A stretch of 64,000 nucleotides of DNA from Granulibacter bethesdensis (GTDB taxonomy: Bacteria; Pseudomonadota; Alphaproteobacteria; Acetobacterales; Acetobacteraceae), in NCBI RefSeq assembly GCF_001889525.1, contig NZ_CP018192.1, forward strand, positions 2,012,501 to 2,076,500. Direction: 5' to 3'. Position 1 is the stretch's first letter; every line of letters starts with the position of its first letter. Below the pieces are notes generated by a model. It was given only the letters and a program-made list of their open reading frames with translations, did not search any database and had not been told where the DNA came from. Below are positions 17,260-35,544 of this stretch, in pieces. Made by a program: the position numbers and the translations under genes.

Positions 17260-17396
17260 GACGGCACAGCATCCTGTTCCTGTGCTTCCAGCACCGCACG
17301 TTGCGTCATGGCATTATCGCCATGCATTCATCACTCTTTCTGCTAGTAGGATCGTGTTGATCAGGCATGCCCATCTCATATCGACCGGACAAAATC

Positions 17397-18149
17397 ATGA
17401 CAAGACGCCTTACGCTGTGCCGCCACCTTCTGACAGCGACATTGCTGATAACCCCGGCTGTTTTCACGGCCTTCCTGCCTGCGGCTTATGCCGCAGAGGA
17501 TGCAACCGCCCGCACGGGATGGTATTTCCCGGCCCAAACCCTGCCGCTGGCAAAAGTGCTGGCTCCCCCGCCCGCCCCCGGCTCCGCCGCGCAGGAGAAG
17601 GATCTGAAGACCGTGCGCAAGGCTGAAGCCGCCCGCACACCGGAGTTGATCGCAGCCATCAAGGCAGACGCCCATATCAGCGTCTATCGCTTTGCCGATG
17701 TCATGGGGCCGGGCTTCATGCCAGAGAATCTGCCGCTGGCCGACAAGATGTTCAGGCATATGTCCGACGATATCCGTATCGCCATCATGGATGCCAAGAA
17801 AGAATTCAACCGGCCCCGCCCCTTCGTGGTAGATCCGAAAATCACCACCATCGTGCCACAGCCGCCCAACGCCTCCTATCCCAGCGGGCATACGGCTTTT
17901 GCTTATGCCAATGCCATCGTGCTCGCCGCCATGGCGCCAGAGAAAGCCGCCGAAATTTTTGCCCGTGCCCATCTGTACGGGCTGCACCGCATCATGGGCG
18001 GGGTACATTTTCCGACCGATGTCGAGGCAGGCAAAGTCTCTGGCAGCGTAATCGGCAGCAATTTCCTGCAATCTCCCCGGTTTCAGGCTGATTTCATCCC
18101 CGCCCGCAAGGAAGTGCGACATGCGCTGGGCCTGCCTGAAATACCCTGA
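17397..18149 (+). CDS. Class A acid phosphatase (PAP2 superfamily), secreted
   Basis: Periplasmic non-specific acid phosphatase. About 250 residues. The signal peptide runs to about residue 33 (LLITPAVFTAFLPAAYAAE). The three phosphatase motifs are present: KKEFNRPRP, YPSGHTAFAYA, and GLHRIMGGVHFPTDVEAG with the catalytic His and Asp. Cleavage of phosphomonoesters to release phosphate is established for the family. ATG 17397 (MTRRLTLCRH) gives a cleaner signal peptide than the in-frame start at 17367. A strong terminator follows at 18175. Confidence 0.9.
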   Translation: MTRRLTLCRHLLTATLLITPAVFTAFLPAAYAAEDATARTGWYFPAQTLPLAKVLAPPPAPGSAAQEKDLKTVRKAEAARTPELIAAIKADAHISVYRFADVMGPGFMPENLPLADKMFRHMSDDIRIAIMDAKKEFNRPRPFVVDPKITTIVPQPPNASYPSGHTAFAYANAIVLAAMAPEKAAEIFARAHLYGLHRIMGGVHFPTDVEAGKVSGSVIGSNFLQSPRFQADFIPARKEVRHALGLPEIP

Positions 18150-18174
18150 TCCCATACAAGGCTGAACATGGCAT

Positions 18175-18209
18175 AAGGGAGGACCGGCATGACCGGTCCT
18201 CCCTTTTTT
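18175..18209 (+). terminator. Rho-independent terminator after acid phosphatase gene
   Basis: Perfect 13-bp stem AAGGGAGGACCGG / CCGGTCCTCCCTT with loop CATGA and a following T run, 25 bases after the phosphatase stop. It separates it from the convergent APC permease gene. Confidence 0.9.
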
Positions 18210-18237
18210 ATCGACCAACCTGACGCGATGGCCGGGA

Positions 18238-19884
18238 TCAGGCAGACAGCAGCCGCCCGGCGATCACTGCCAACACGCCGCCCAGCAAAGCCAGATAAGG
18301 CAACAGACCGGCACGGCTTTCTACGCCTTCCTCTTTCTGCATATGCAGATCCTTGATCGCGGCTTCAGGGAAGACGCCCTTATCCTGCACGTAATGACGG
18401 AACAGGAAGACCGGGATGATCATCGCCGCAACGATGATACCGGTCAGCAAGGTCCCACTGCCCCATACACCGGCCCCCATCCCCATCAGGAAGGCGTTGA
18501 CGAAACCCAGCACCGCCCCCGTGCCTAGCAGCCAGCCGGGGCATTTGAACGGACGGGCCAGAAACGGACGATCAATCCGATGCAGCCAGCCTGCATTGAG
18601 GTTCATGAAGCTGAAAATGATATAGCCGACATTGGAAGCCGCCAGCACGAATACGTTATCGCTCAGCAGCAGCAGCAACATATTAAAGCAGAGATCAGTC
18701 CACATCGCATGGGTCGGCGCACCATGATGGTTCACATGCGACAGATAGCGCGGCAGCCAGCCATCGACCGATCCCTGATACAGCGTGCGCGATGACCCAG
18801 CCATGGCCGTCATGATCGATAGCAGCAAAGTCAGTACGAGCATGACAACGATGATATTCAGCATGATTCCCTGTGCCCCGATCATCGCCGCCATGGCACG
18901 GCCAACCCCCATGCCACTGTAAATATCGGGTGCCAGCATGCCATCCAGCCCCAGAGCGCCCTGGAAAGCCAGCGGAACCAGAGTGAAGACTACCAGACAG
19001 AGCAGACCGGAAAAGAAGATCGCCTTGAACGTATCCGTGCTGGGATTACGGAACTCCCGCGTGTAGCAAACAGCGGTCTCAAACCCGTACGTGGACCAGG
19101 CCGCAATAAACAGGCCGCCTGCCATCAGCGAGAGACCGGCCATGTCCCAATGTCCGGCCACAACCTTGCCCGCCGCATCATGCGCCAGAGGCACAAAAGG
19201 CGTGAAATGGCTGGCCGGCAAATCCCCCGTCACCAACGGCACCAGCCCGATGATCAAAAGCGGCAACAAGGACACCACCGCAAAAATCATCTGGATACGG
19301 GCAGAGGCCAGAATCCCGCGATGCTGGATAGCAAACACACACAGCATCAGCACAGCCGCAAGCCCAAAAGTAGCGTTGATTCGGATCGTCAGACCATCCT
19401 TGATCATCCCCAGATCAAACAGGGTCCACTGCCAGCTGTTCACCACACTATCCGCCGGGAACAACACAGACAGAATATAGCCAGCCCCCAGCGACGTGCC
19501 GATGGCCAGCACCGGTGACCATGCAAACCAGTTACACCAGACCGAAAGCGGCGCGATCAGCTTGCTGTAGCGCACCCAGGCCACGGCCCCATAAACGGAT
19601 GCCCCACCTGATTTTTCCGGGAAAAGCCCGGCAATTTCCGCATAAGTAAAAGACTGCAAAAATCCGAACAGGATTGAAATAATCCAGACTGCCCAGGAAG
19701 GATTACCAACAGTCGCGGCAATCGAGCCGATCGTGAACAGAACCAGCGCAGGCACGCCGCTGGAAACCCAGAACGCATCTACCCATGTCAGTGAACGGAC
19801 CAACTCGTTGCTGGTCTTCGTCACCGTCTCGCCTACTGCCTTACCGCCTGCAGGCAACGCGATATCCAAAGCACCCTCACTCAT
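18238..19884 (-). CDS. APC superfamily permease, candidate TMAO/amine transporter
   Basis: Inner-membrane secondary transporter of the amino acid-polyamine-organocation superfamily. 548 residues with about 12 hydrophobic helices. The N-terminal motif region FWVSSGVPALVLFTIGSIAATVG and AEIAGLFPEKSGGASVYGAVAWV match APC helices 1-2, and GGLFIAAWSTYGFETAVCYTREFRNPSTDTFKA matches the helix 6 region. GGAGGGG precedes the ATG, and a promoter candidate is at 19983-20012. Published work on Methylocella silvestris tied an APC permease to TMAO uptake next to its TMAO demethylase gene. Here the gene lies one regulator away from tdm, so a methylated-amine or TMAO substrate is a good inference but not shown by the sequence. 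Confidence 0.85.
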   Translation of the reverse strand: MSEGALDIALPAGGKAVGETVTKTSNELVRSLTWVDAFWVSSGVPALVLFTIGSIAATVGNPSWAVWIISILFGFLQSFTYAEIAGLFPEKSGGASVYGAVAWVRYSKLIAPLSVWCNWFAWSPVLAIGTSLGAGYILSVLFPADSVVNSWQWTLFDLGMIKDGLTIRINATFGLAAVLMLCVFAIQHRGILASARIQMIFAVVSLLPLLIIGLVPLVTGDLPASHFTPFVPLAHDAAGKVVAGHWDMAGLSLMAGGLFIAAWSTYGFETAVCYTREFRNPSTDTFKAIFFSGLLCLVVFTLVPLAFQGALGLDGMLAPDIYSGMGVGRAMAAMIGAQGIMLNIIVVMLVLTLLLSIMTAMAGSSRTLYQGSVDGWLPRYLSHVNHHGAPTHAMWTDLCFNMLLLLLSDNVFVLAASNVGYIIFSFMNLNAGWLHRIDRPFLARPFKCPGWLLGTGAVLGFVNAFLMGMGAGVWGSGTLLTGIIVAAMIIPVFLFRHYVQDKGVFPEAAIKDLHMQKEEGVESRAGLLPYLALLGGVLAVIAGRLLSA

Positions 19885-19982
19885 GACGCCCCTCCATACT
19901 CATAAGGTCATGACGTGGCTTTTCCCGGCGGTGATGTCTGACATCCTTCAGGATGCGATCACCTTAATTTTCTTGTTAGGAA

Positions 19983-20012
19983 ATATTATTTCTAAAATCG
20001 TAACCTGATCAA
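19983..20012 (-). promoter_or_regulatory. Sigma-70-like promoter candidate for the APC permease
   Basis: On the minus strand TTGATC (20012-20007), an 18-base spacer, then TAATAT (19988-19983), in an AT-rich intergenic stretch about 100 bases before the permease ATG. A small hairpin CATCCT/AGGATG lies in the leader. Confidence 0.45.
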
Positions 20013-20061
20013 AACCGATGCGCAAGCGGACAAATCGGGATCAAGGCAGGGGAAAGGCAAA

Positions 20062-21147
20062 TTAATCCGCTTTTTTTGCTTTTTTATGGCTACGGGAAGC
20101 CGCTGTGACAGTGCGCACCACTTCCTCTGGCTCATCCAGCAAAGGGCTGAACAACGCGACCAGCGCACGTTCCGATGTCACATTCGCTTTTCGATAAAGC
20201 CGAAGTTTATAGTTTTTGACAGTTCCTTTTGCGATCCCAAGACTCTGCGCAATCTCCCCGGTTGAGCGGCGCTGCAAAATCAATGTCAACAGGGAGCGCT
20301 CCCTGCCCGTCAGCATGGCGATATCCGGCAATGGAAAAGAAGCATGTTCCGCAGGCGTCGTATCCTGCACCGGTTTGCTCAGCAGCACGATGCCACGCCC
20401 ACCCGGTGCCAGAGAAAAATCCTTGTCGAAACAAGCCACTTGAACATGGTACTTCTCATCGAAAGGAAAAAGACCGGGCCTGTCAGGCAAAGCGGCGCAG
20501 TCATTGAGATCTGGTGATAAACAAGCCGCCTGCCGCCAAGCCGCGTTGGCGAAAACCGGCACACCGACACGATCCAGAATCAATAAAGGGTCGGTATGCA
20601 GATGGCTGGAGCCACGATGGGCCGTCTCCACGGCCTTTTCTTCTCCAAACATGCGCGCGAGATGAATCCGGTGCAAAGCCTCCAGAATCGGGAACAGGGC
20701 CTCGGCCTCCTGCCTGTCCTGATCGCTAAAGCGTCCCTCTGCCAGAACCAGAAACAGCACGATGCAGGCCCGACCAGCAGAAGGCAGAAACACGCCTATC
20801 TCATCACTGACGCGCACCCGTGGGGCATAAACATCACCATAGACCGTGCTGTCAGGCCCCAGAACCTGCCGCAGAACATACACACCAGGCTGATGATGGC
20901 GCGCCCAGTGCTGGGCAAAGGGATCAGCGTGATGATACTGCGTCAGGTAAAATTCACGGATATGAACTGGCACGTTCACCGTATGCACCACATCCTGCCG
21001 TGAATGCGCCGTATAGCGGATGATCCAGGCATTATCGTGTCCGATCACAGCACGCAGCAGATCCAGCAAAACCTCATAAAATCGGCGGCTGCCGACCTTT
21101 CTGATCGTTAAGGCCAGCTCCCTGCAGAATGCTGCTTGCCCGGGCAT
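20062..21147 (-). CDS. LuxR-type transcriptional regulator
   Basis: About 361 residues. The C terminus carries a LuxR/FixJ helix-turn-helix (LTGRERSLLTLILQRRSTGEIAQSLGIAKGTVKNYKLRLY) followed by a basic tail rich in Lys. The N-terminal 250 residues lack a receiver Asp and look like a ligand-sensing domain, so it is probably a one-component sensor. It sits between the APC permease and the divergent methylamine operon, and a perfect palindrome at 21265-21282 lies in its upstream region, so control of both is likely. The start is uncertain. ATG 21147 is chosen because the longer frame from 21273 would run through the palindrome; no good ribosome-binding site is visible for either. Confidence 0.82.
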   Translation of the reverse strand: MPGQAAFCRELALTIRKVGSRRFYEVLLDLLRAVIGHDNAWIIRYTAHSRQDVVHTVNVPVHIREFYLTQYHHADPFAQHWARHHQPGVYVLRQVLGPDSTVYGDVYAPRVRVSDEIGVFLPSAGRACIVLFLVLAEGRFSDQDRQEAEALFPILEALHRIHLARMFGEEKAVETAHRGSSHLHTDPLLILDRVGVPVFANAAWRQAACLSPDLNDCAALPDRPGLFPFDEKYHVQVACFDKDFSLAPGGRGIVLLSKPVQDTTPAEHASFPLPDIAMLTGRERSLLTLILQRRSTGEIAQSLGIAKGTVKNYKLRLYRKANVTSERALVALFSPLLDEPEEVVRTVTAASRSHKKAKKAD

Positions 21148-21264
21148 AACCCGTGCAGGGAAAACAAATGCCTGCTTATCAGCATCATGATTGCCCAAAA
21201 ATTGCTCTCCACCCCGCTGAGACAAAGCGCATTTGCCTGAAAAATAGACATTTATCCGTCTTTG

Positions 21265-21282
21265 TAGTGCCACTTGGCACTA
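21265..21282. promoter_or_regulatory. Perfect 18-bp palindrome, candidate operator
   Basis: TAGTGCCACTTGGCACTA is a perfect dyad with 8-bp arms around CT. It lies between the divergent LuxR-type regulator and tdm, about 70 bases before the proposed tdm start. Dimeric LuxR-family proteins typically bind dyads of about this length. Assignment to the adjacent regulator is inference. Confidence 0.6.
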
Positions 21283-21350
21283 TTGTGAATGGACCTGTCA
21301 GGCAATTACCTTTCCTACAAGACAACATTACTGAACAGAGGAAATGTTCC

Positions 21351-23633
21351 TTGGACATCTTTCCTGCTGATACACCAACTCCTAGCAGAAGCAGTGCCAT
21401 TCTGCGTGGCGGCCAATGGACAGTGCTGACAATCCCGGCAGGCGGTTCGCTCATGTTGGTCAATATCGAAGGCGGCCAGACAGTCGATCTGTATTGTCTT
21501 TCAACAGCGGCCCTCATTCTGCCGGAGGATGACAGCGTTTCTCCTTCTCCAGACAAGCTGGCGGGTCTGGTAAGTGCGAAGGAACGCGCCGACACAGTAT
21601 TGGCACACTATACGGATGCAGAGCTGGCCATCATGGGATGGAGGCTGTTTGACGGCAGCACACCCGACAAGACAGCCTTGAGTGTCACGGCCCGCCATGA
21701 TGCAGTCTGTGTGCTGATATCAGCCAAAACTGTGATGACGCCAGATAGCCACAATACAGCAACAGACATTGCTATTCATATTACACAAGATGAAACAGCG
21801 CTGCGTCTTCCGGCACCACTGGCACCGGTCAAGGCCGAAATTCATATTCCGCCCGCCAGCGCACGCGCCTACACCGTCAAGGCCGGTGACTACATACAGA
21901 TTATCGACGTGCAGGGTAAACAATGCTCTGACTTTCTGGCTTTTGATGCACAAAGTCTGAAAAATGGCGATCTGAACGGGCTGGATGCCGCGGTGACACG
22001 CACCTTCACCGGAGTTGCCAATCCAAGCCCCGGCGTCCATGCGCGATACTTCGATCGCACTATGAAGCCGCTGGTCGAGATCGTACAGGATACAGTCGGG
22101 CGCCATGATGCATTTCTGCTGGCCTGTAACGCGCGATATTACGAGACGCAGGGCTATCCCGGACATACAAACTGCACTGATAATTTCAATGCAGCCCTCC
22201 AGGATCACGGAATCAAACCTCAGATAACCTGGCCTGCCATCAATTTCTTTTTCAATACACAAGTCAATGCTGACGGGGCTATCTCTCTGGAAGAACCATG
22301 GTCAAGGCCGGGTGATTACGTGCTGCTGCGGGCCATGACCGATCTGGTCTGTGCCAGCTCCGCGTGCCCTGACGATATAGACCCGGCCAATGGCTGGACA
22401 CCTACGGATATCCATGTGCGCATATACGATGCCTCCGCACCGTTTTCCAAAGGCATTGGCCATCGCATCACGCGCCATACGGAGGCACGATTGACAAGGG
22501 AATCAGGTTTTCATAGCCGCACATTACCTCTGGCAAAGGAAATGATCGACTATCAAGGCTTCTGGCTTCCACGGGAATATAGTGGCAGTGGAGCCATTGA
22601 AGAATACTGGGCCTGCCGGGAAAAATCCGCCCTGTTCGACCTTACGGCCCTCAGAAAATTCGAAATCACTGGCCCGGATGCAGAGAAACTTCTGAACTAT
22701 GCCGTTACACGCGACATCAGCAAGCTTTCCATAGGGCAGATCGTCTATACAGCGCTTTGTCATCCCCATGGCGGTATGATCGACGATGCCACCGTGTTCC
22801 GCATGAGCCAGCACACATTCCGTCTGATATGTGGCCGGGAATGGTGCGGCACCTGGCTGCGTATGCTGGCCAGTGAAAAAGACTTCAAAGTCTGGGTCAG
22901 AAGCTCAACAGACCAGCTTCACAATATCTCCCTGCAGGGACCGCTGAGCAGAATAATCCTCAGCACGGTTTTTAGTCCCTATCTGACTCAGCCTGATGCA
23001 CAAGACCTGAAATGGTTTCACTTTTCGACTGGCATGCTAGGAAAACATGACCCCTCTCCTGTCATGATTTCCAGAACTGGGTACACCGGAGAATTGGGAT
23101 ACGAAATTTTTTGCCATCCCAAACATGCTGGTTCTGTGTGGGATGTCGTGATGGAGGCCGGTAAAAATCATGGTCTCAAACCGGCGGGACTGGATGCCCT
23201 GAATATGCTGCGAATTGAAGCGGGCCTGGCGTTTGCCGGGTACGAATTCTGCGATCAGACCGATCCTTTTGAGGCGGGAATAGGCTTTGTCGTCAGTCAG
23301 AAAAAACAAAGCGATTATGTGGGTAAAACCGCCCTTCTTGAACGTGGCAGCGCTTATCGCAACAGGCTGGCAGGGCTTGTGATCGACGGCAATGACACCG
23401 TTTTTCATGGCGATGGCGTTTATAATGGAATGGCACAGGTTGGCATTATCACCAGCCCAGTATTTTCGCCCATCCTTGGCTCCCAAATTGCCCTGGCACG
23501 GATTGATCCGTCGGTTGCCGCATCTGGGACTCACATTGAGATAGGAAAAGATAACGGCATGCAGCTGCGTATTCCGGCCCATGTCGTAGGATTTCCTCAC
23601 TATGACCCACAAAAAACAAAAGTCCGCTCCTGA
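21351..23633 (+). CDS. tdm: Trimethylamine N-oxide demethylase Tdm (DUF1989-GcvT fusion)
   Basis: Splits TMAO into dimethylamine and formaldehyde. About 760 residues. The first ~160 have a DUF1989-like stretch (GGQWTVLTIPAGGSLMLVNIEGG). A second DUF1989 unit (about 160-380) has the metal-ligand candidates in GKQCSDF, TNCTDNFN and CASSACPDD. The C-terminal aminomethyltransferase/THF-binding domain (about 400-760) has ISRTGYTGELGYEIF and GLDALNMLRIEAGLAF. This domain order is that of the characterised Methylocella Tdm. I place the start at TTG 21351 because AGAGGAAA lies seven bases upstream; the frame opens at 21153 without a site. It is the first gene of a six-gene operon, and tmm follows within 35 bases. 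Confidence 0.88.
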   Translation: MDIFPADTPTPSRSSAILRGGQWTVLTIPAGGSLMLVNIEGGQTVDLYCLSTAALILPEDDSVSPSPDKLAGLVSAKERADTVLAHYTDAELAIMGWRLFDGSTPDKTALSVTARHDAVCVLISAKTVMTPDSHNTATDIAIHITQDETALRLPAPLAPVKAEIHIPPASARAYTVKAGDYIQIIDVQGKQCSDFLAFDAQSLKNGDLNGLDAAVTRTFTGVANPSPGVHARYFDRTMKPLVEIVQDTVGRHDAFLLACNARYYETQGYPGHTNCTDNFNAALQDHGIKPQITWPAINFFFNTQVNADGAISLEEPWSRPGDYVLLRAMTDLVCASSACPDDIDPANGWTPTDIHVRIYDASAPFSKGIGHRITRHTEARLTRESGFHSRTLPLAKEMIDYQGFWLPREYSGSGAIEEYWACREKSALFDLTALRKFEITGPDAEKLLNYAVTRDISKLSIGQIVYTALCHPHGGMIDDATVFRMSQHTFRLICGREWCGTWLRMLASEKDFKVWVRSSTDQLHNISLQGPLSRIILSTVFSPYLTQPDAQDLKWFHFSTGMLGKHDPSPVMISRTGYTGELGYEIFCHPKHAGSVWDVVMEAGKNHGLKPAGLDALNMLRIEAGLAFAGYEFCDQTDPFEAGIGFVVSQKKQSDYVGKTALLERGSAYRNRLAGLVIDGNDTVFHGDGVYNGMAQVGIITSPVFSPILGSQIALARIDPSVAASGTHIEIGKDNGMQLRIPAHVVGFPHYDPQKTKVRS

Positions 23634-23666
23634 CTGTTCACTTTATCCAAGACACGGATGTTCATC

Positions 23667-25028
23667 ATGAAAAAGAAAATTGCCATTATCGGTGGTGGTC
23701 CAAGCGGTCTGGCATTCCTTCGCGCTATGGAAAGTGCGCGTAAAGCAGGGGCAGAGGTTCCAGAGTATGTCTGTTACGAGAAACAGGCAGATTGTGGAGG
23801 ACTCTGGAACTATACATGGCGTACCGGCCTGGATGAATTCGGTGAACCGGTGCATGGCAGCATGTATCGTTTTCTGTGGTCCAACGGTCCAAAAGAATGT
23901 CTTGAATTCGCAGATTATTCCTTTGAAGAGCATTTTGGCCGCGCCATTCCATCCTATCCACCGCGTGCTGTTCTGCACGATTATATCAAGGGCCGAATTG
24001 AAAAGTCCGGCGTTAGGCAGTTCATCAAGTTCCATCATGCTGTCAAATGGATTGACTATGATCAGGAAAGCCGCACCTTTTTTGTGACAGTCAAGGATTT
24101 GAAGGCAGATACGCTGAAGACCGATACGTTTGACCATGTGGTCATTGCGACCGGACATTTTTCCGTTCCAAACGTGCCATATTTCGAGGGTTTCGAGAGT
24201 TTCCCCGGTCGCATCATGCATGCACATGATTTCCGGGATGCCAATGAATTCGCTGGTAAAGACATTCTGATGGTCGGAAGCTCCTATTCAGCGGAAGATA
24301 TTGGAACGCAGTGTGCGAAATATGGCTGTCGCTCGGTAACGTTCAGCTATCGCACCCGCCCGATGGGATTTCAGTGGCCGGAAGGATTTGAGGAAAAACC
24401 CCTTCTGACTCATGTCAAAGGTAACATAGCCTATTTCAAAGATGGGACCTCAAAAAAGGTAGATTCCATTATCCTCTGTACAGGATACCAGCATTCATTT
24501 CCTTTCCTGCCTGACTCCATGCGTCTGAAAACCAACAATCGTCTGTATCCGCTTCATCTGTACAAAGGTATTTTCTGGCAGGACAATACAGATCTCATGT
24601 ATATTGGCATGCAGGATCAGTATTACACTTTCAATATGTTTGATGCACAAGCATGGCTGGCACGGGATGTCATTCTTGGACGCTACATTCTTCCGGATGC
24701 CGCCACACAGGATGCCGACATAAAACACTGGAGAACGCTGGAAGAAAAAATTGAAAATCCTTACCAAGCAATCGATTTCCAGACCGAGTATGTCCGCGAT
24801 CTTCTATCACTGACGGATTACCCTCATCTTGATGTCGACCGGATCGCAGCCCTGTTCAAGGAATGGGAGCATCATAAAGAGGAAGGGATCATGACGTATC
24901 GTGATCGCAGTTATCCCTCCACCCTGACTGGCACCATGGCGCCCAGCCACCATACAAAATGGATGGATGCCAAAGATGACAGCATGGAAGCGTTTCTCAA
25001 TCACCCTCGTATGGAGGCTGCAGAATGA
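23667..25028 (+). CDS. tmm: Trimethylamine monooxygenase Tmm
   Basis: Class B flavin monooxygenase that oxidises trimethylamine to its N-oxide with NADPH and O2; it can also oxidise other methylated amines and sulfides. 453 residues from ATG 23667. The FAD motif GGGPSG is at about 8-13, the FMO fingerprint [11 protein letters not shown] at about 180, and the NADPH motif [11 protein letters not shown] at about 205. The blocks [35 protein letters not shown] and [17 protein letters not shown] are near those I recall from the Methylocella and Roseobacter Tmm proteins, not from generic FMOs. An ATG nine bases upstream is also possible. It supplies the substrate of Tdm, encoded just before it, and overlaps the next gene by four bases. 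Confidence 0.92.
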
Positions 25029-26134
25029 CCATTTCATACCCGGAACGCCATTCCGCCCTTACCAGCCGTCATGTGGCACTCGGATCAAAAATGGATGCAT
25101 CCTGGAATGGGATGTCTATCCCACAGACCTATGCATCCAACCCTTATGATGAGACCGTTCTTGTCAGGACCAAAGCAGGGCTTTTTGATGTCACGGCATT
25201 GCAGATCATCAATGTCTCCGGCCCTGATGCCATGACTGTTCTTAATAATCTGGTGACATCAGATCTTGCGAAAATTTTGCCTGGCAGCTCCCTGATCACC
25301 AGCATTGTCAATGATGAAGGCGGCATCATTGATGACGTCATTATCTATGTTGATAGCAAGACCGAGTTCCGTGTTTCTCATGGTGGCGGCACACTTGAGC
25401 CGGTGCTCATGAAGGATATTGTCGGGCATGATGTAGTTGCTGAGCGGGATGATGATGTCCACATCCTCTCCCTGCAAGGCCCCCTCTCAGGAGATATTCT
25501 GCAGCCCCATACAGAATTGTCTCTATCCTCGCTATCCTATTTCTCCCATGCTCAAACAACGCTGTTCGGAAAACCGGTCAGGATTGCACGGGGTGGATAT
25601 TCCGGAGAGACTGGATATGAGGTGTTCTGCACTTCAGAAGAAGCAGGCCCAATCTGGGATATGATCCTGGAGGCCGGAAAATCCTATGGCGCGGCTCCAG
25701 TGAGCTGGTCCTGCCTTGATATCGTCCGCCTTGAGGGAGGATTGCTGTTTTTCCCCTATGATATGCCGGCGGAGAATACCACCCCATGGGAGGTCAATAT
25801 GGGATGGTCCATTGACCTTCAGAAACCGGCTTTCCGTGGCAAGAAAGCACTCGAAGCATTACGCGGTCAGGAACGCAGCACGATTATCGGTCTGGAAGTA
25901 CTCAGCAAGGAAGCAGCCGAGGCCGGCACTCCCATTTTCCATGATGGTGTTCAGGTCGGACAGGTAACCAGCAGTATCTTCAGCCAATATCTGATGAAAT
26001 CTCTGGCTATTGCCACGATTAAGCCCTCCCTGTCTGCGCTCGGCACCGCGGTATCTGTAGGACAATCAGCACAAGCAAATATCGTTCGCATGCCATTCTA
26101 TGATCCACTGCGACTGAGAACCCATCCAAGATAA
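25025..26134 (+). CDS. dmmD: GcvT-family protein of the dimethylamine monooxygenase operon (DmmD-like)
   Basis: 369 residues forming a stand-alone aminomethyltransferase (GcvT) fold: [64 protein letters not shown], and a C-terminal domain with [20 protein letters not shown] and [12 protein letters not shown]. Such proteins bind tetrahydrofolate and move one-carbon units. In marine bacteria a gene of this type sits with dmmABC, and I use the name dmmD for that position. The likely role is capture of the formaldehyde released by demethylation as methylene-THF; this is inference. GGAGG lies seven bases before the ATG, which overlaps the tmm stop. Confidence 0.78.
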
Positions 26135-26152
26135 AAAGGGAGAACGGCAGAC

Positions 26153-26722
26153 ATGCTTCTCAGTAAGCCAGTCTATCAGGATCTGAAAATTGACCTGACA
26201 GGAAGAAGACATTTGTTTGTTTTTGACCGGTCTGCCGCTCAATGGAGAAGTAGATCTGATATCTGCACTCATGCCTCCTTTTACGTGATGCCTGACAGCC
26301 GGATCATGCCGGAACAGGCGCCGGATGCAGAGACAAACAGTCTCTGCCTTCCGTTCCGCTCTGAGACCCAGTTGCTGAGCTATCTTGAGTCTTATCTTGG
26401 GACAGAGACCATGGGCCTGAGACTCTACGCAGCTGGCCAGGAAAGTTTCGTATGGGATTGTTACCGGGTGGCGCAGCAGGCTGGTATGACGCGCCCGGAA
26501 ATTCATCTGACCGTCTCAGGAGAAGTCAGCAGGCGGGTTTACTGCGTTCACTGCCAGACCATCAACCATAGGGCAAAAAGCACGCTCATCCAATGTGATG
26601 GCTGCAACGCAACTCTTTTTGTCCGTGATCATTTCTCGCGTGCGCATGGCGCCTATATGGGTTTTCAGGTTGATGCTGAAAACCCCGGCGAAATTCCTTC
26701 GGCCGAGGCACTTTCCCTATGA
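26153..26722 (+). CDS. dmmA: Dimethylamine monooxygenase subunit DmmA
   Basis: 189 residues. The N-terminal part is globular without clear motifs. The C-terminal region has a zinc-ribbon-like arrangement, YCVHCQT then IQCDGCNATLFVRDHF, ending in SRAHGAYMGFQVDAE. This small Cys-containing protein next to a PDR-type reductase and a DUF3445 protein matches the three-gene dimethylamine monooxygenase set. Its exact task, perhaps electron relay or assembly, is not settled as far as I know. GGGAGA lies upstream of the ATG, and the gene overlaps dmmB by four bases (ATGA). Confidence 0.82.
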   Translation: MLLSKPVYQDLKIDLTGRRHLFVFDRSAAQWRSRSDICTHASFYVMPDSRIMPEQAPDAETNSLCLPFRSETQLLSYLESYLGTETMGLRLYAAGQESFVWDCYRVAQQAGMTRPEIHLTVSGEVSRRVYCVHCQTINHRAKSTLIQCDGCNATLFVRDHFSRAHGAYMGFQVDAENPGEIPSAEALSL

Positions 26723-27693
26723 CAGAGCACAAAAATACACCCCGCCAGATAGATGTCAGGTTGTCTGATATAGAGCCGCTTTCTCCCACTTTGAAACGCC
26801 TGACTTTTGTTCCCATAAAAGCTGCTGCTTTTCCCATCATCCCGACAGGCAGCCATGTCATCGTGTCGATACCAGGGAGCAGACGGCCTCATAAAAATGC
26901 TTATTCTCTGATCGGGCCATCAGACAAGACAGATGCCTATCAGATTGTCGTTCGAAAAGTGGATAAAAGCCGTGGTGGTTCAAACTGGATTCATGAACAG
27001 GCTAAAATAGGCGACAAACTTCAGATCAGCTGGCCATCCAGCCTCTTTCCCCTTTCCAACGTTGCGCGCCGTCATCTTCTGATCAGCGGCGGGATCGGGA
27101 TTACCCCTATTCTGTCGCATCTGCACGCCCTGACTGCCCGGGGCGCATCGTTCAGCCTGCATCATGCCTGCAAAGCTGAAGACAAGAATGCCTTCTCGAC
27201 CCTGCTGGCACCTTTCCATGGCCATGACATCACCCTTTACGTAGCCGACGATCCATCATCCTCCCGACTGGATCTTCAGGCCGTGATGGGCAGACAGCCT
27301 CTTGGTACTGTTCTCTACACATGCGGCCCACAAAAGCTGACCGATACCATCATGGAGACAGGCCGCGCACTCGGCTGGCCTGCATCAAGCCTTCAGACTG
27401 AAAGTTTCGGTGGGGCTCGGGCCGGCACAGCGTTTACCCTGCATGCACGCCGATCGGGCAAAACCATTCTTGTGGATGAAGAGAGCAGCATTCTGGAGGC
27501 TTTGGAAAGCGCTGGTATCGAGCCAACCTATCTCTGCCGTGGAGGAGCCTGTGGTCAGTGCCTGACCAGTGTGATTGATGGCATTCCAGAACATCGCGAC
27601 GACTTTCTGGATGAGCAGGAACGCGCCACAAACAAAAAAATAATGATCTGTGTTTCACGGGCATGCAGCCCTTCTCTGACCCTTGATATTTGA
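26719..27693 (+). CDS. dmmB: Dimethylamine monooxygenase reductase subunit DmmB (PDR/VanB family)
   Basis: Cytosolic electron-transfer flavoprotein passing electrons from NAD(P)H to the heme oxygenase subunit. 324 residues in the phthalate-dioxygenase-reductase order: flavin-binding barrel (about 15-105, RPHKNAYSLIGPSD), nucleotide-binding domain (SGGIGITPILSHL, LYTCGP), and a C-terminal plant-type [2Fe-2S] ferredoxin with CRGGACGQC (C-x4-C-x2-C) and a fourth Cys in IMICVSRAC. The FMN/NAD/ferredoxin order identifies the PDR/VanB type. It lies between dmmA (four-base overlap) and dmmC (29 bases). Confidence 0.88.
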   Translation: MTEHKNTPRQIDVRLSDIEPLSPTLKRLTFVPIKAAAFPIIPTGSHVIVSIPGSRRPHKNAYSLIGPSDKTDAYQIVVRKVDKSRGGSNWIHEQAKIGDKLQISWPSSLFPLSNVARRHLLISGGIGITPILSHLHALTARGASFSLHHACKAEDKNAFSTLLAPFHGHDITLYVADDPSSSRLDLQAVMGRQPLGTVLYTCGPQKLTDTIMETGRALGWPASSLQTESFGGARAGTAFTLHARRSGKTILVDEESSILEALESAGIEPTYLCRGGACGQCLTSVIDGIPEHRDDFLDEQERATNKKIMICVSRACSPSLTLDI

Positions 27694-27722
27694 TCCACCG
27701 ACAAAAGAAGGGATTTTCTGTC

Positions 27723-28781
27723 ATGACTTTGCAGTTCAAGCCAGATGAAACGTTCCGGGGTGATTACAACTTCAGAAACAGCGATGAAGCGATACTCAGT
27801 TTCCCGTTTCCGTTTCCTGAAGATGAATACATGTATTCGATGAATGCCGAACCACATGTCAAATCCGGACCATCCCCATCCTATCATCATGCATTCGACA
27901 TTGATGAGCACTACATCGCTGAATGCAAGGAACGTGCAATCATTCTGGAGCAAGACCCGAAACGCTGTCAGGTCATGCCGCATCTTCAGATTGCCGAATG
28001 GGATACGCTTGAACTCCTGATGGATTCCCTGTCTACCGACTACCCTCAATGGTTCAGCTTGACGAAGGACGCTAACAAATGGTGCTGGGTCAATCGTCTT
28101 CTGGCGATTGAGCAGAATTTCATTTTTGGTGACGCAACTACGCTGCCTTTACCACCCTTCGAGTATATCACCAGACAGGTTCAAGGAGATTTCACTCTTC
28201 AGGATCAGCGAGAAAACAATCTGTTTATCGAAGGCGGAATGGTAACTTCTCAGGCGGATTGGTCGCTGAATTTCGACAAGGGCATGAGCTTTCATGAATG
28301 GCATGCGCCTGTGCCCTTAGCCCATGATATGGGGGTCTTTGATCGAGCTCTCAAATTTCTGCTCAAACTGCAATATGGGCAGCCTGCGCGACGTCTGAAC
28401 TGGACTTTGACCGTTAATCCACGCCTCGATACGTCCCCGGAGAATTATGCAGTCTGGGGACCGGATCGTATGACGATAACGCCTGAAAATGTAAGACAGA
28501 AAGTGCATCTTCGTGTCGAACTGCAAAGTCTGTTCCGTCTGCCACGCAGCAATGCCATCCTGTTCTCCATCCGCGGTTATCTGGCCAGTATAGAAGAAAT
28601 TCAACGCGTTCCCAAATGGCGCCGTCGACTGCATCGTGTGATACGGGATATAAACCCTTCGATCCGAACCTATAAGGGCTTCTCGCGCTACTATGACACG
28701 CTGGTTTCTGCTCTAGCCGCAGGGGATGATGGATTACCAACATCTTCAGGCATTCAGCCTGATATTGACAGGCTTTCGTAA
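27723..28781 (+). CDS. dmmC: Dimethylamine monooxygenase DmmC, heme-dependent oxidative N-demethylase (DUF3445)
   Basis: Probable catalytic subunit oxidising dimethylamine to methylamine and formaldehyde. 352 residues from ATG 27723, with GAAGGGA upstream; the frame also offers TTG 27690. Family blocks I recognise: LQIAEWDTLELLMDSLS, PLPPFEYITRQVQGDFTLQ, WSLNFDKGMSFHEWHAPVP, and near the C terminus LRVELQSLFRLPRSNAILFSI followed by a charged basic stretch. DUF3445 proteins are annotated as heme-dependent oxidative N-demethylases; the heme-ligating residue cannot be fixed by eye. It is the last gene of the operon and is followed two bases later by a bidirectional terminator. Confidence 0.87.
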   Translation: MTLQFKPDETFRGDYNFRNSDEAILSFPFPFPEDEYMYSMNAEPHVKSGPSPSYHHAFDIDEHYIAECKERAIILEQDPKRCQVMPHLQIAEWDTLELLMDSLSTDYPQWFSLTKDANKWCWVNRLLAIEQNFIFGDATTLPLPPFEYITRQVQGDFTLQDQRENNLFIEGGMVTSQADWSLNFDKGMSFHEWHAPVPLAHDMGVFDRALKFLLKLQYGQPARRLNWTLTVNPRLDTSPENYAVWGPDRMTITPENVRQKVHLRVELQSLFRLPRSNAILFSIRGYLASIEEIQRVPKWRRRLHRVIRDINPSIRTYKGFSRYYDTLVSALAAGDDGLPTSSGIQPDIDRLS

Positions 28782-28783
28782 CA

Positions 28784-28819
28784 AAAAAGGCCCTCCTCCT
28801 TAAAGAGCAGGGCCTTTTT
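28784..28819. terminator. Bidirectional terminator between dmmC and fmdB
   Basis: Perfect 11-bp stem AAAAAGGCCCT / AGGGCCTTTTT with a 14-base loop, between two convergent operons. A and T tails on both sides allow it to work in either direction. Confidence 0.88.
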
Positions 28820-28830
28820 AAATGGAGATC

Positions 28831-29166
28831 TTAGTGACTGATCATCCAAGGTCGTTGGGCAGGAAAATTTTTAGCGGCTGGCGGTGAGTCGGCCGTCAAT
28901 TTTGACTTTCCCTTCTTTGCACTACAACAAGAGCATCCGGACGGATGACTCCCGCGTGATCGGCGCGGAGCATGGACACTGCGTTCATTGGTAGCGAATG
29001 CAGTTCGCCGGGCAGAATCCATAGCGGCAAATGATGGTGCGGTGAGTAACACACGAGGAGCAGATGTGCCGCAATCCGGGCAGCACGCAGGCTGCTCGAA
29101 CTCAGACATCGGGCGCATTACGGTAAAGACGCCGCATGACTCACAATGATAGTCATAGACCGGCAT
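28831..29166 (-). CDS. fmdB: FmdB-type zinc-ribbon protein
   Basis: 111 residues. The N-terminal zinc ribbon is the FmdB/CxxC signature: MPVYDYHCESCG then CCPDCG, giving two CxxC knuckles. A basic linker and a second Cys cluster follow (GCSCCSAKKG). In Methylophilus methylotrophus fmdB was proposed as a regulator of the formamidase genes. AAGGAGG directly precedes the ATG. It is the last gene of the amide operon, 11 bases after fmdA. The extra CSCC cluster near residue 80 may bind a second metal. Confidence 0.88.
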   Translation of the reverse strand: MPVYDYHCESCGVFTVMRPMSEFEQPACCPDCGTSAPRVLLTAPSFAAMDSARRTAFATNERSVHAPRRSRGSHPSGCSCCSAKKGKSKLTADSPPAAKNFPAQRPWMISH

Positions 29167-29177
29167 AGGAGACCTCC

Positions 29178-30410
29178 TTACAGATCCTGCGCAATCGGCA
29201 TATCTACCAGACCAGGTGTTACACCACCGCTGGGACCATCCGCACCCGGATTAATATCAAAATCAAAAATTTCCGTGGGTACCCAGAGCGTGGCACAGGA
29301 ATTGGGAATATCGACCACACCGCTGATATGACCCTGTACCGGTGCAGTGCCGAGGATCGAATATCCCTGTGCACCGGAATATCCAAATTTCTTTAGATAC
29401 TCGATAGCATTGAGGCAAGCCTGACGATAGGCGACATTGACATCAAGGTAATGTTGTTCGCCTTGCTCATCGACTGAAATACCCTCGAAGATCAAATAGT
29501 CACTGTAAACGGGTTTGATGGGACTTGGCTTGAAGATCGGATTTTTGATTCCATACTTTGCCATTCCGTCCTTGATCAGATTCACACGCATATGAATCCA
29601 GCCTGGCATTTCGATAGCGCCACAGAAGGTAATTTCACCATCGCCCTGGCTGAAGTGAAGATCACCAACGGATAGACCTGCCCCTGGAACGTAAACCGGG
29701 AAGAATACCCGAGCTCCTCGTGATAGATCCTTAATGTCGCAATTGCCCCCATGCTCACGCGGAGGAACGGTGCGGGCACCATGAGCAGCGGCGGCATCAC
29801 GTGCCTCACCTTTTAAGCGCCCCATATGAGCTGTCGGCTCAAAAGGGGGATTGGCCAAAGGTGGCACACGGTTTGGGTTGGTTGCGATCAGCGCTTTCTC
29901 CCGCGCATTCCATTTTTCCAGCAGATCGGGAGATGGCAGGCATCCTATCAGGCCGGGATGGATCAGACCTGCATAATTCACACCGGGAACATGGCGAGAA
30001 GAGGCAAACATGCCATGAAAATCCCAGATTGATTTCTGGGCCAAAGGAAAATGGTCCGTCAGAAAGCCGCCGCCATTCTTTTTGGAGAAAAACCCGTTGA
30101 AGCCCCACGCATTATGCGGGAATGCCCCAATATCCAGAAAATCGACTACCAGTAGGTCACCTGGTTGTGCCCCCTCGACACCGATCGGGCCACTGAGATA
30201 ATGCACGGTTGTCAGGTCGACATCCCGGACATCCTCGGCTGAGTCATTATTTTTTATGAATCCACCTGTCCAGTCATAGCATTCAACAATAAAATCATCT
30301 CCTGGCTTGACTGTGGCGACCATTGGAATGTCATGATGCCACCGATTATGCACCATATCATTGCTGATAGCCGGTTGTGACAGGTCGATTTTGATGATCG
30401 TGTCAGTCAT
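29178..30410 (-). CDS. fmdA: Formamidase FmdA (acetamidase/formamidase family)
   Basis: Hydrolyses formamide, and more slowly acetamide, to ammonia and the carboxylate in the cytosol. 410 residues of the FmdA/AmdA family: IDLSQPAISNDMVHNRWHHDIP, VECYDWTGGFIKNNDSAEDV, VHYLSGPIGVEGAQPGDLLVV, FPHNAWGFNGFFSKKNGG, REHGGNCDIKDLSRGARVFFPV, SVGDLHFSQGDGEITFCGAIEM. The His, Asp and Cys residues of the metal/active site fall inside these blocks. It sits between the transporter ATPase gene and fmdB, so import and hydrolysis of short amides are encoded together. It is unrelated in fold to the AmiF formamidase at 40082. Confidence 0.95.
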   Translation of the reverse strand: MTDTIIKIDLSQPAISNDMVHNRWHHDIPMVATVKPGDDFIVECYDWTGGFIKNNDSAEDVRDVDLTTVHYLSGPIGVEGAQPGDLLVVDFLDIGAFPHNAWGFNGFFSKKNGGGFLTDHFPLAQKSIWDFHGMFASSRHVPGVNYAGLIHPGLIGCLPSPDLLEKWNAREKALIATNPNRVPPLANPPFEPTAHMGRLKGEARDAAAAHGARTVPPREHGGNCDIKDLSRGARVFFPVYVPGAGLSVGDLHFSQGDGEITFCGAIEMPGWIHMRVNLIKDGMAKYGIKNPIFKPSPIKPVYSDYLIFEGISVDEQGEQHYLDVNVAYRQACLNAIEYLKKFGYSGAQGYSILGTAPVQGHISGVVDIPNSCATLWVPTEIFDFDINPGADGPSGGVTPGLVDMPIAQDL

Positions 30411-30457
30411 GGCATCATCCCGTTGAACAAATGGTTGAATTTTTTCCGGTTATATTT

Positions 30458-31147
30458 TTAGACAGCCAGGAAACGGGCTACTTTTTCCTGATCAAGATTT
30501 TCTTTTGTATCCTGATGAACAATCTTGCCACCTTCGATTACCATGATCCGATCAGCAACATCCAGTGCAAAAGATAAAACCTGTTCAGACACAAAAATTG
30601 AAAGCCCTTTCTGATCACGTATTCTACGTAGTGTTCTGGCCATTTCCAGAATAATAGAGGGTTGAATACCTTCAGTCGGTTCATCCAGCAGCAGAACCTT
30701 TGGCTCAGTGGCCAGAGCACGGGCAATGGCAAGCTGTTGCTGCTGGCCGCCAGATAGGTTGCCACCCCGACGTCGGCCCATTTCTTTTAGGACAGGAAAA
30801 AGTTCATACAAATCCGAAGGTATTTTCGATTTTCCTCTTACAAAAAGACCTGTTTCAATGTTTTCTGTTACTGTCATCGTCGAAAAAATCATGCGCCCCT
30901 GCGGAACATAGGCAATCCCGGTTTCAACACGCCGGTGGCTTTTCATCGTCGTGATATCGGTGCCATCCAGCATGATCTGACCACCGCTGCCGGGAACCAT
31001 TCCGATCAGCGATTTCATCAGTGTCGATTTTCCCATGCCATTGCGGCCAACAATAGCCACAATTTCTCCGGCACCAATATCAAGATCAATCCCGTGGAGA
31101 ACTTCACTCTGGCCATATGACACGCGCAATTCATTTGTAGTCAGCAT
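30458..31147 (-). CDS. urtE: Amide/urea-type ABC transporter ATPase (UrtE/LivF-like)
   Basis: Cytosolic ATPase of a branched-chain amino acid-type (HAAT) importer. 229 residues, Walker A GRNGMGKST, signature LSGGQQQQLAIARAL, Walker B VLLLDEPTEGIQPS. The GIQPS sequence after Walker B is typical of UrtE. I use ATG 31147 because AGGAGA lies seven bases upstream; an earlier in-frame start at 31162 overlaps urtD. The formamidase gene follows 47 bases later on the same strand, which favours short amides as the cargo, as in the fmdDEF system of Methylophilus. Confidence 0.9.
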   Translation of the reverse strand: MLTTNELRVSYGQSEVLHGIDLDIGAGEIVAIVGRNGMGKSTLMKSLIGMVPGSGGQIMLDGTDITTMKSHRRVETGIAYVPQGRMIFSTMTVTENIETGLFVRGKSKIPSDLYELFPVLKEMGRRRGGNLSGGQQQQLAIARALATEPKVLLLDEPTEGIQPSIILEMARTLRRIRDQKGLSIFVSEQVLSFALDVADRIMVIEGGKIVHQDTKENLDQEKVARFLAV

Positions 31148-31158
31148 AGCGTGTCTCC

Positions 31159-31905
31159 TCAATGTCCCAGATAGACTTCAATGACTTTCGGGTCATTCTT
31201 TACATGCGCCATGGTTCCATCTGACAAAACCTGTCCCTGATGAAGAACCGTTACTTTATGGGCAATATCCTCTACAAAACCCATGTCGTGCTCGATAACC
31301 AGCACAGAGCGACCTTCAATGATCCTGTGCAGAAGCTCAGCAGTTTTCTGCCGTTCGGCCACGCTCATACCTGCAACCGGCTCATCGAGCATGAGAAGTT
31401 CAGGATCCTGAATCAGCAGCATTCCTATTTCCAGCCACTGTTTCTGACCATGGCTAAGATACTCGGCCCGTTCATGAAGACGATCCTGAAGGAAAATCAT
31501 CTCGCTGATTTCCTCAATTCTGGAACGGACTTCTGCGTCACACCGAAAGCTTAATGCTCCAAACACAGATCGGCCACGCGGATAAGAAATCTCAAGATTC
31601 TCGAAAACCGTGAGATCTTCATAAATCGATGGGTTCTGGAATTTACGTCCGACTCCAGCACGAACAATCTGATGCTCCTTCAGGGTGGTCAGTTCATGAT
31701 TACGGAACCTTATAGATCCTGATGATGCTTTTGTTCGCCCGCAGATAAGGTCAAGAACTGTGGTTTTCCCCGCTCCATTTGGACCAATGATCACGCGGAT
31801 TTCATTGCGATCAACATAGAAGGACAGATCATTAACGGCCTTGAAACCATCGAATGAAACGGTCAATCCCTCGACAGCCAGAAGAAAATCTGTTTCTGAT
31901 GACAT
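31159..31905 (-). CDS. urtD: Amide/urea-type ABC transporter ATPase (UrtD/LivG-like)
   Basis: Second ATPase of the importer. 248 residues with Walker A GPNGAGKTT, a signature in the variant form LSHGQKQWLEIGMLL, and Walker B LLMLDEPVAGMS. The LSHGQKQWLEIGM stretch is a UrtD hallmark, since plain LivG proteins have LSYGQQR. GGGAGA precedes ATG 31905. It overlaps or abuts urtE by 11 bases and follows urtC by 14. Confidence 0.9.
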   Translation of the reverse strand: MSSETDFLLAVEGLTVSFDGFKAVNDLSFYVDRNEIRVIIGPNGAGKTTVLDLICGRTKASSGSIRFRNHELTTLKEHQIVRAGVGRKFQNPSIYEDLTVFENLEISYPRGRSVFGALSFRCDAEVRSRIEEISEMIFLQDRLHERAEYLSHGQKQWLEIGMLLIQDPELLMLDEPVAGMSVAERQKTAELLHRIIEGRSVLVIEHDMGFVEDIAHKVTVLHQGQVLSDGTMAHVKNDPKVIEVYLGH

Positions 31906-31919
31906 GACAGCTTTCTCCC

Positions 31920-33065
31920 TTACTTCACAACCACAGGCGTATCGGTCGAAGAAAGCACTTCTTTAGCTGCGTTATGCTGTCTTTTACCCATGCCGAGCAG
32001 GCGGCTGACATAGGGATCGAGATAGCTGCGATACAATCCGGCCAGACCGTTGGGGAACACCATTGTCACAACGATGAACAATGCACCCATTGCAAACAGC
32101 CAAGCATTGGGGAACGCTTCTGACAGGGTGGAGCGGGCCCAGTTTACCAGCAAGGTTCCATACAGCGCGCCCAGCAGAGAGGTACGCCCACCGACAGCAG
32201 CGAAAATCACCATTTCAATAGAAGGAACGATCCCGACAAAACTCGGGGACATGAAGCCAACCTGAAGGGTAAACATTGCACCCCCCACTCCGGCCAGAGC
32301 CGCTGCAACACAAAAGGCAAAAATCTTGAAACTCGCAACGTCATACCCGGAGAAACGTACCCGATCCTCCCGATCCCGCATTGCCAGAAGAATACGACCG
32401 AGCTTTGATCGCCGGATAAACTGAAGCAGAATCAGACTGCCCAGAAGCAGGCCGCAGCAGACGAAATAAAGCACGTTTCTGGCATGATCTGTGCGGATAT
32501 CCCAACCATGAAAGCTGCGCAGATCGGTGATTCCATTGACACCACCGGTATAGCCCTGTTGGCCGATGATCAGAATGGTCAGAATGGCGGCAATGGCTTG
32601 CGTGATGATGGCGAAATATGTGCCGCCTACTCGCCGCCGGAACATGGCGACCGCGATTACCAGTGCCAGCACCATTGGCACCGCAGGAACTGCAAAAATG
32701 GTAAAGGCCAGGCTGTGAAACGGCTTCCAGAACCATGGTAGTGATGTAATCTGGTTCCAGTCCATGAAATCCGGAATCCCTGGTGTAGACTGGATTTTGG
32801 TTGCTTCCGGCGTCGATGATTCCAGCTTCAGATACATGGCCATGCAGTAGCCGCCGAGGCCAAAAAACACGCCCTGACCAAGACTGAGAATACCTGCATC
32901 ACCCCAGCACAGCACCAGACCGAGTGCCACGAAACCATAGGTCAGATATTTTCCGAACAGGTTCAGGCGAAACGTGTCGAGACCAAGCGGAAATACAACA
33001 AGGATCAGAAAGGCAAACAAGCCGATACACAGAATATCTTTGCGATTGAGGAAACTACTGTTCAT
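31920..33065 (-). CDS. urtC: Amide/urea-type ABC transporter permease (UrtC/LivM-like)
   Basis: Inner-membrane permease. 381 residues with about nine hydrophobic helices and the family blocks CWGDAGILSLGQGVFFGLGGYCMAMYL, QAIAAILTILIIGQQGYTGGVNGIT, LLAMRDREDRVRFSGYDVASFKIFAF and VGGRTSLLGALYGTLLVNWARS. The QQGYTGGVNGIT loop and the long periplasmic insert (about 95-125) are UrtC-like. GAGGAGC precedes the ATG. It follows urtB by 14 bases. Confidence 0.9.
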   Translation of the reverse strand: MNSSFLNRKDILCIGLFAFLILVVFPLGLDTFRLNLFGKYLTYGFVALGLVLCWGDAGILSLGQGVFFGLGGYCMAMYLKLESSTPEATKIQSTPGIPDFMDWNQITSLPWFWKPFHSLAFTIFAVPAVPMVLALVIAVAMFRRRVGGTYFAIITQAIAAILTILIIGQQGYTGGVNGITDLRSFHGWDIRTDHARNVLYFVCCGLLLGSLILLQFIRRSKLGRILLAMRDREDRVRFSGYDVASFKIFAFCVAAALAGVGGAMFTLQVGFMSPSFVGIVPSIEMVIFAAVGGRTSLLGALYGTLLVNWARSTLSEAFPNAWLFAMGALFIVVTMVFPNGLAGLYRSYLDPYVSRLLGMGKRQHNAAKEVLSSTDTPVVVK

Positions 33066-33079
33066 GTGAAATATGCTCC

Positions 33080-34003: not shown

Positions 34004-34046
34004 CAACCTGTCCTCCGTGTTTCACTGCCTTATTCAGCCAGGTTTC

Positions 34047-35330: not shown

Positions 35331-35413
35331 ATGTTTTGTCCTGACGGTCATGTCGGAGGAAAAAAATCGTTTCCGCTTCGCGACATACTGGTCCGGCCGG
35401 ACGCCAATCATGG

Positions 35414-35431
35414 ATACGTCATATGACGTAT
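35414..35431. promoter_or_regulatory. Perfect 18-bp palindrome, candidate operator
   Basis: ATACGTCATATGACGTAT is a perfect dyad in the divergent region between the amide transporter operon and the transporter-fused kinase gene, 84 bases from one start and 114 from the other. It could be the site of the LuxR-type response regulator encoded at 39048. That link is inference. Confidence 0.6.
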
Positions 35432-35544
35432 GGCAATGCATAGCGGATGAAGGGAGGCTCCCTCACCATACACGGCCATACGGTGGCGAGGATGGTGAAA
35501 GGTCAGGCGAAAAAACCGGGCCATTATGGCATACTGCCCCCGAC

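Follow-up and report, generated by a model that had tools for sequence, protein, structure and literature searches.

Does Granulibacter bethesdensis, a member of the Acetobacteraceae, encode an aerobic route that would strip the methyl groups from trimethylamine (TMA), and where would the products of such a route go? The question is raised by a 64,000-base stretch of its genome (contig NZ_CP018192.1, positions 2,012,501 to 2,076,500; here called the window), in which six intact genes lie at 21351-28781, all on the + strand, in the order tdm-tmm-dmmD-dmmA-dmmB-dmmC. We established gene presence, gene order, family membership and residue conservation directly, and are highly confident that the locus serves methylated-amine utilisation, with Tmm, Tdm, DmmD and DmmABC, together with the permease TmoP, forming a predicted path from trimethylamine to methylamine (MMA). 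The original prediction had named the six genes in this order, and all frames proved intact and co-directional; the extent that it gave to the locus was right for the six genes and omitted tmoP and a LuxR-type gene that lie just upstream.

The six enzymes and their conserved residues

All six proteins match Pfam families above the curated cut-offs. Tmm (23658-25028, +, 456 amino acids; alternative ATG at 23667) is the predicted trimethylamine monooxygenase, scoring 816 bits against the NCBIfam equivalog NF058570, 141 above the cut-off of 675, with profile positions 1-442 of 443 covered, i.e., full length. Its nearest solved chains, 8b2d (682 bits) and 6kbw (641 bits), are flavin monooxygenases (FMOs), a Tmm entry among them. 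Tdm (21351-23633, +, 760 amino acids), the predicted demethylase of trimethylamine N-oxide (TMAO), combines PF09347 (DUF1989) with the GcvT domains PF01571 and PF08669 and aligns over residues 11-760 with the solved TMAO demethylase 9q59 (760 bits). DmmD (25025-26134, +, 369 amino acids) is a GcvT-like protein with PF01571 and PF08669. DmmA, DmmB and DmmC, the putative subunits of a dimethylamine (DMA) monooxygenase, are encoded together: DmmA (26153-26722, +, 189 amino acids; PF22289, PF22290) reaches 113 bits against NF041259, whose cut-off is 60; DmmB (26719-27693, +, 324 amino acids; PF00970, PF00111, PF22290) resembles a flavin/2Fe-2S reductase subunit; and DmmC (27723-28781, +; ATG start, in-frame TTG at 27690) is of the haem-dependent oxidative N-demethylase catalytic type, with 231.5 bits to PF11927 and 466 bits to the solved enzyme 5lte. 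In NCBIfam, DmmC is without a match at E 0.001, and DmmD and DmmB are without a specific model over cut-off. By these family models and solved relatives the enzyme identities and the pathway that had been predicted hold, and comparison of the six products with Tmm, Tdm and DmmABC relatives agrees with the named enzymes, Tdm falling 25 bits under its naming cut-off. R. pomeroyi (Ruegeria pomeroyi) DmmABC converted DMA to MMA when expressed in E. coli, as PMC5520151 describes in the portion consulted, and we infer this activity for the window proteins, and N-oxygenation of TMA for Tmm, from such characterised relatives.

The metal site of Tdm offers a finer comparison. According to extracts of PMC12560246, the Methylocella silvestris enzyme binds zinc through C263, C279 and C343, with H276 and D346 as proposed iron ligands; the same source doubts D198, once proposed as a bridge. 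We aligned the window Tdm with those of 89 other loci, which comprise the best 80 kept from a scan of named genomes (at least 595 stretches matched, 577 of them encoding a relative) and nine from genomes of the family, two of these being congeners; some of the stretches are short, so that locus counts given below are lower bounds. At the equivalents of C263, C279, C343, D198 and H276 (C259, C275, C339, D194 and H272) all 90 aligned sequences agree, and D342, the equivalent of D346, is invariant in all eight rows of a smaller alignment.

Layout and boundaries of the operon

The spacing between successive genes from tdm to dmmC is 24, -4, 18, -4 and 29 bases, so the close packing described in the original prediction stands, although its maximum gap of 33 bases arises only with the later tmm start at 23667. 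The tdm start is most likely the TTG at 21351, which follows the motif AGAGGA: a start at GTG 21153 was considered and rejected because position 11 of the family profile aligns with residue 77 of that longer frame, placing the start near 21351. The 52 bases around this TTG are identical in one congener and carry one difference, within the gene, in the other. Downstream, between dmmC and a convergent fmdB-type gene, a terminator-like hairpin (28780-28824, stem 28784-28819) is preceded by an A run and followed by a T run; its folding energy is -20.5 kcal/mol (z -5.1), which none of 200 shuffles equalled. Rfam gave no match above the gathering score within 17000-36000. Between the window and its two congeners, protein identity across the block is 91-97% (Tmm, 96-97%). 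The Pfam matches over cut-off, this conservation among congeners and the recurrence of the block in other bacteria together argue that it is more than a chance arrangement. The spacing and the hairpin suggest that the six genes are co-transcribed.

Weighing the assignment

The pathway that we propose draws on characterised relatives for its activities, its co-transcription and its regulation. TmoP would import TMAO, as its family suggests, and perhaps other methylated amines; Tmm would oxidise trimethylamine to TMAO, and Tdm, a predicted Zn/Fe enzyme, would split TMAO into dimethylamine and formaldehyde. DmmABC would then release methylamine and a second formaldehyde from dimethylamine, with DmmC as the haem-type catalytic subunit and DmmB as the reductase, and DmmD probably transfers formaldehyde to tetrahydrofolate. 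Methylamine would be handled further by the products of genes elsewhere in the genome, MgsABC-GmaS and an N-methylglutamate dehydrogenase, and formaldehyde would enter the tetrahydromethanopterin and tetrahydrofolate routes. The LuxR-type protein, encoded divergently, may act as regulator of the cluster.

Several observations weigh against parts of this scheme. Tdm scores 1075 bits against NF053776, 25 below the NCBI naming cut-off of 1100. The scan for sigma-70-like promoters of the type used found none upstream of tdm, including within 21148-21350. Terminator-like matches number 10 in 21000-29200, compared with 6.3 +/- 2.8 in shuffles, and five on the + strand (23438, 23848, 24139, 28321 and 28879) lie in the six genes or just past the operon; these five look like chance matches. 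Finally, at the position of the folate-binding Arg223 of E. coli GcvT, as placed by sequence alignment, DmmD has Leu in 47 of 47 rows, and a folate role for DmmD is therefore not secure. At the position of the folate-binding Tyr101, Tyr is present in 38 of the 47 DmmD rows, that of the window included, and Ile in nine, and the window DmmD keeps the Glu195 equivalent. Tdm, by comparison, shows at the Tyr101 position Phe in 75, Leu in 13 and Met and Val in one each of its 90 rows, and at the Arg223 position Leu in all 90, so that DmmD looks nearer to the folate enzyme than Tdm does, though not a full match. In R. pomeroyi, passages of PMC5520151 report that dmmD is required for growth on TMA and TMAO and, in a complemented strain, not on DMA, and propose that it lowers formaldehyde toxicity.

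Could the enzymes instead be related FMO, GcvT and N-demethylase-like proteins that act on other N-methyl compounds, such as betaine derivatives or N-methylated amino acids? The GcvT and FMO superfamilies are broad, and the GcvT portions additionally hit domains of sarcosine and dimethylglycine oxidases. However, Tmm stands 141 bits above an equivalog cut-off, Tdm aligns over almost its whole length with a solved TMAO demethylase and keeps the metal-site residues, the six genes of a single pathway are clustered here as they are in at least 40 of the 89 loci, and a betaine/sarcosine-type operon is present elsewhere in the genome. We consider a shift to other substrates very improbable. A different emphasis, compatible with the enzyme assignments, is that the locus serves mainly TMAO imported by TmoP, with Tmm of little weight: tmoP adjoins the cluster, and in Rhizobium leguminosarum a tmoP homologue lies beside a DUF1989-domain gene in a stretch where tmm and dmm are not annotated. 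Yet tmm is intact, sits within the operon and is 96-97% conserved in both congeners, and we regard a TMAO-centred role as unlikely.

The TmoP permease

The tmoP gene (18238-19884, -) encodes an APC-family permease of the TMAO permease family (PF13520) that reaches 867 bits against the NCBIfam equivalog NF053774, whose cut-off is 690; no sequence relative was found in the PDB at E 0.1. By tblastn, a tmoP homologue is present within the fetched stretch of 50 of the 89 tdm loci, the two congeners included, and in 40 of the 48 outside the genus no more than 500 bases separate it from the nearest of the six genes. Its context was further followed in two of the 118 plasmid records that match TmoP and in one record that matches the LuxR-type protein. 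The first two are the R. leguminosarum stretch mentioned above and one from Paracoccus alcaliphilus in which the homologue adjoins dmmDABC-type genes with no tdm annotated; in the third, from Methylobacterium sp. DM1, tmoP adjoins dmmABC-dmmD without a full tdm. The name "TMAO permease" may thus be too narrow, because tmoP also pairs with dmm genes that have no tdm nearby.

A LuxR-type gene as candidate regulator

Next to tmoP, a LuxR-type gene (20062-21147, -; 361 amino acids from ATG 21147, start uncertain) encodes a sensor-like N-terminal part and a helix-turn-helix (HTH) domain (PF00196). Together with tmoP it forms the - strand half of a divergent locus whose other half is the six enzyme genes, and the 203 bases between it and tdm (21148-21350) presumably hold divergent promoters, as judged from position. 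Its product may regulate the cluster. A structural model (predicted local distance difference test score 72.6, from eight sequences) is matched best in the PDB by 5xhx, the ligand-binding domain of VqsR, onto which the N-terminal part fits with a template-modelling score of 0.82 by target length and 0.39 by query length.

The surroundings of its closest full-length relatives suggest a link with methylated amines. At E 1e-20 no relative was found in 57 sampled relatives outside the genus. Relatives occur in seven of the 89 tdm loci: the two congeners, L028 (one full copy and one cut by the stretch end), L034 (two copies), L052, L055 and L026 (a weak end fragment). The five full-length relatives aligned from outside the genus are 33-38% identical; those of L028 and L034 are divergent from tmoP, and in the Acetobacter estunensis and A. 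sicerae loci a relative lies about 5 and 8.5 kb upstream of tdm. On plasmids, 68 records match the protein, 10 of them over at least 80% of its length, and the two best (39% and 34%) belong to TMA/DMA clusters. On plasmid 1 of Methylobacterium bullatum a relative (39%) is divergent from tmm-tdm, and on plasmid pLVM1 of Methylobacterium sp. DM1 two copies (30% and 35%) are divergent from tmoP-dmmABC-dmmD. The pLVM1 cluster differs in that the 17 kb covered contain neither tmm nor a full tdm, and it adjoins mauF. The pLVM1 stretch itself (76809-93807, L139) comes from a plasmid typed as conjugative, and its tmoP-dmmABC-dmmD and two LuxR-type genes lie between mauF and transposases; it is possibly a mobile dimethylamine module.

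Other relatives speak against the link. The remaining eight near-full-length plasmid relatives are all less than 30% identical, and in the six that we inspected (H3, H4, H6, H7, H9 and H10) there was no full TMA/DMA gene match, the sole hit being a 24% match of FMO type to tmm in H4; the neighbouring genes in these six are annotated as amidases or agmatinase, or with roles in betaine regulation or the catabolism of other amines. A shorter relative on Sinorhizobium meliloti pSymB (33.5% over 58%) adjoins acetone carboxylase-type genes (one of 55 Sinorhizobium records was inspected). Because the remoter relatives adjoin other genes, the TMA/DMA link is limited to the nearest full-length ones, and the partial relatives in Sinorhizobium, lying elsewhere as they do, lower our confidence in the regulatory reading.

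Control in R. pomeroyi, by the AraC-type TmaR and by TmoR according to the part of PMC13390433 consulted, is different. In the window it is the LuxR HTH PF00196 and not the AraC-type HTH of TmaR that is found in the gene divergent from tdm (TmaR was not searched for elsewhere in the genome), and a LysR-type gene is divergent from the putative mgd operon described below. In the literature searched, LuxR appeared beside trimethylamine monooxygenase only in a paper whose LuxR passage, in the portion available, concerns DmfR and dimethylformamide degradation. Our tentative proposal, which we would not yet rate as high as even, is that TMA/DMA catabolism in some soil- and plant-associated Alphaproteobacteria is under the control of a LuxR-type protein whose ligand-binding domain is VqsR-like, separately from marine TmaR/TmoR, and that the partner permease of this regulator, TmoP, carries methylated amines more generally.

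Predicted onward use of methylamine and formaldehyde

The route had been described as complete; trimethylamine to methylamine is indeed encoded in the operon, but methylamine use is encoded elsewhere in the genome (2,690,741 bases, one contig). A gmaS gene scores 635 bits against a cut-off of 469.6, and genes adjoining it fit mgsA, mgsB and mgsC by domain, as counterparts of mgsABC adjoin gmaS in other loci too. Two sox-type operons are present (L131, L132). The one at about 202 kb has SoxD and SoxG parts and adjoins a siderophore receptor gene and a divergent LysR-type gene. Its soxB is 69-77% identical to those of operons beside mgs/gmaS in other bacteria, compared with 51-55% for the other operon, and because it is the nearer relative we read it as mgd, encoding N-methylglutamate dehydrogenase. 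Exceptions are three loci with only a 26% soxB match and one (L085, in which no mgs/gmaS is shown) whose soxA resembles that of the other operon more closely, at 38 versus 35%. That other operon adjoins glycine betaine monooxygenase-like genes, both below cut-off (441 bits against 670, and 396 against 500).

For formaldehyde, Fae and Mch are over cut-off, FTHFS (FtfL) is present and so is an MtdB-type domain; no glutathione-type formaldehyde dehydrogenase was found at E 1e-30 in any of the three genomes of the genus. Given mgsABC-gmaS, the mgd-type operon and the Fae, Mch, MtdB-type and FtfL genes, methylamine has a predicted onward route. By its genes, the set is that of a methylotroph, in agreement with PMC4766906, where the part consulted calls G. 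bethesdensis one. For comparison, strain CGDNIH1 has 2,708,355 bp at 59.1% GC, without a plasmid (Table 1 of PMC4596401, an excerpt).

Comparison with known systems and distribution

Zhu et al. are said to have described, in 2014, the tdm, tmm, dmmD, tmoP and dmmABC genes of M. silvestris. The proteins of M. silvestris TVC are 45-69% identical to those of the window: window DmmD is 57% identical to the product of a gene beside tmm/tdm, DmmB 45% to that of the gene between dmmA and dmmC, and DmmC 68%. The same genes, the APC permease included, are also given in extracts of PMC5520151 and PMC4543880. The layout differs, with dmmABC opposite to tmoP-dmmD-tmm-tdm in M. silvestris TVC and all six enzyme genes in one co-directional block in the window. 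R. pomeroyi shares Tmm, Tdm, DmmDABC and the N-methylglutamate route, as far as the portion of PMC5520151 consulted goes.

Closer in arrangement are A. estunensis and A. sicerae, which have tdm-tmm-dmmDABC in identical order and strand. Their enzymes are nevertheless only 36-67% identical to those of the window, gaps between tblastn matches reach 241 bases, and no tmoP was found in the fetched stretches, nor at E 1e-60 in two further family genomes with a matching operon, whose Tmm groups tightly with that of the two Acetobacter species.

More widely, Tmm is over cut-off in three of 60 relatives, all in the genus of the window. Tdm at E 1e-120 or better occurs in 10 of 397 sampled genomes of the family (seven of these genomes over the naming cut-off), spread over six of 102 genera, and in 34 of 385 sampled genomes of the class (28 over it), both counts including the source genome. 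All six genes are present in at least 40 of the 89 loci and on one strand in at least 25; these co-directional sets fall into four orders, with gaps of more than 2 kb in four of the 25. The order of the window is found in at least six loci (the two congeners and four Acetobacter-type), and the possibility that the operon is unique to the genus was rejected on this order and on Tdm in six family genera. Many different Alpha- and Betaproteobacteria are represented among the best 80 named loci, and most are not marine Roseobacters. The claim that the locus widens the known range of the pathway is thus weak, since Acetobacter carries the same order and Tdm is already widely spread beyond marine Roseobacters. 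In the literature searched there was no report of a trimethylamine route in Granulibacter, nor of tmm in Acetobacteraceae or acetic acid bacteria. The pathway is a known one; the novelty lies in its occurrence in Granulibacter and in the regulator lead. Separately, a contig binned as a Klebsiella pneumoniae metagenome-assembled genome (MAG; L040) carries tmm-tdm-dmmD, with a Tmm very near that of a betaproteobacterial MAG (L049), and its assignment to Klebsiella is probably a binning error.

Origin and neighbouring features

From the LuxR-type gene to urtC (20062-33065), GC at third codon positions is 0.42-0.58, compared with 0.60-0.70 in ten other measured genes, which include tmoP, urtA and urtB at the edges of the segment. 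This suits a horizontal gain before the species of the three genus genomes split. The window joins Acetobacter in the DmmC tree (89% support, not starred) but not in the Tmm tree, so the donor is not settled.

Convergent with the operon, the region 28831-35441 (-) holds the fmdB-type gene, a formamidase gene fmdA (752 bits, cut-off 500) and a urtEDCBA-type urea/amide ATP-binding cassette transporter. It is common to the congeners, and a search of the other 87 tdm loci at 45% identity or more did not find it. On M. bullatum plasmid 1 (L138, 1063-2331) a urtA homologue, 75% identical to window urtA, lies about 1.1 kb from tdm, and the next 15 kb past it hold no match to urtB-E or fmdA. Further along the window, 35350-39968 (+) encodes a large hybrid histidine kinase and, immediately after it, a response regulator that carries a LuxR HTH, and 5907-6238 (-) is a tmRNA gene with the tag ANDNHEALAVAA.

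Implications

A compact 2.7 Mb genome thus appears to carry an aerobic route from trimethylamine to methylamine along with C1 genes for its products, which adds methylated amines to the candidate substrates of the Granulibacter methylotroph. With a single LuxR-type gene and a divergent stretch of 203 bases, the locus may also offer a simple system in which to study control of the pathway in non-marine bacteria.

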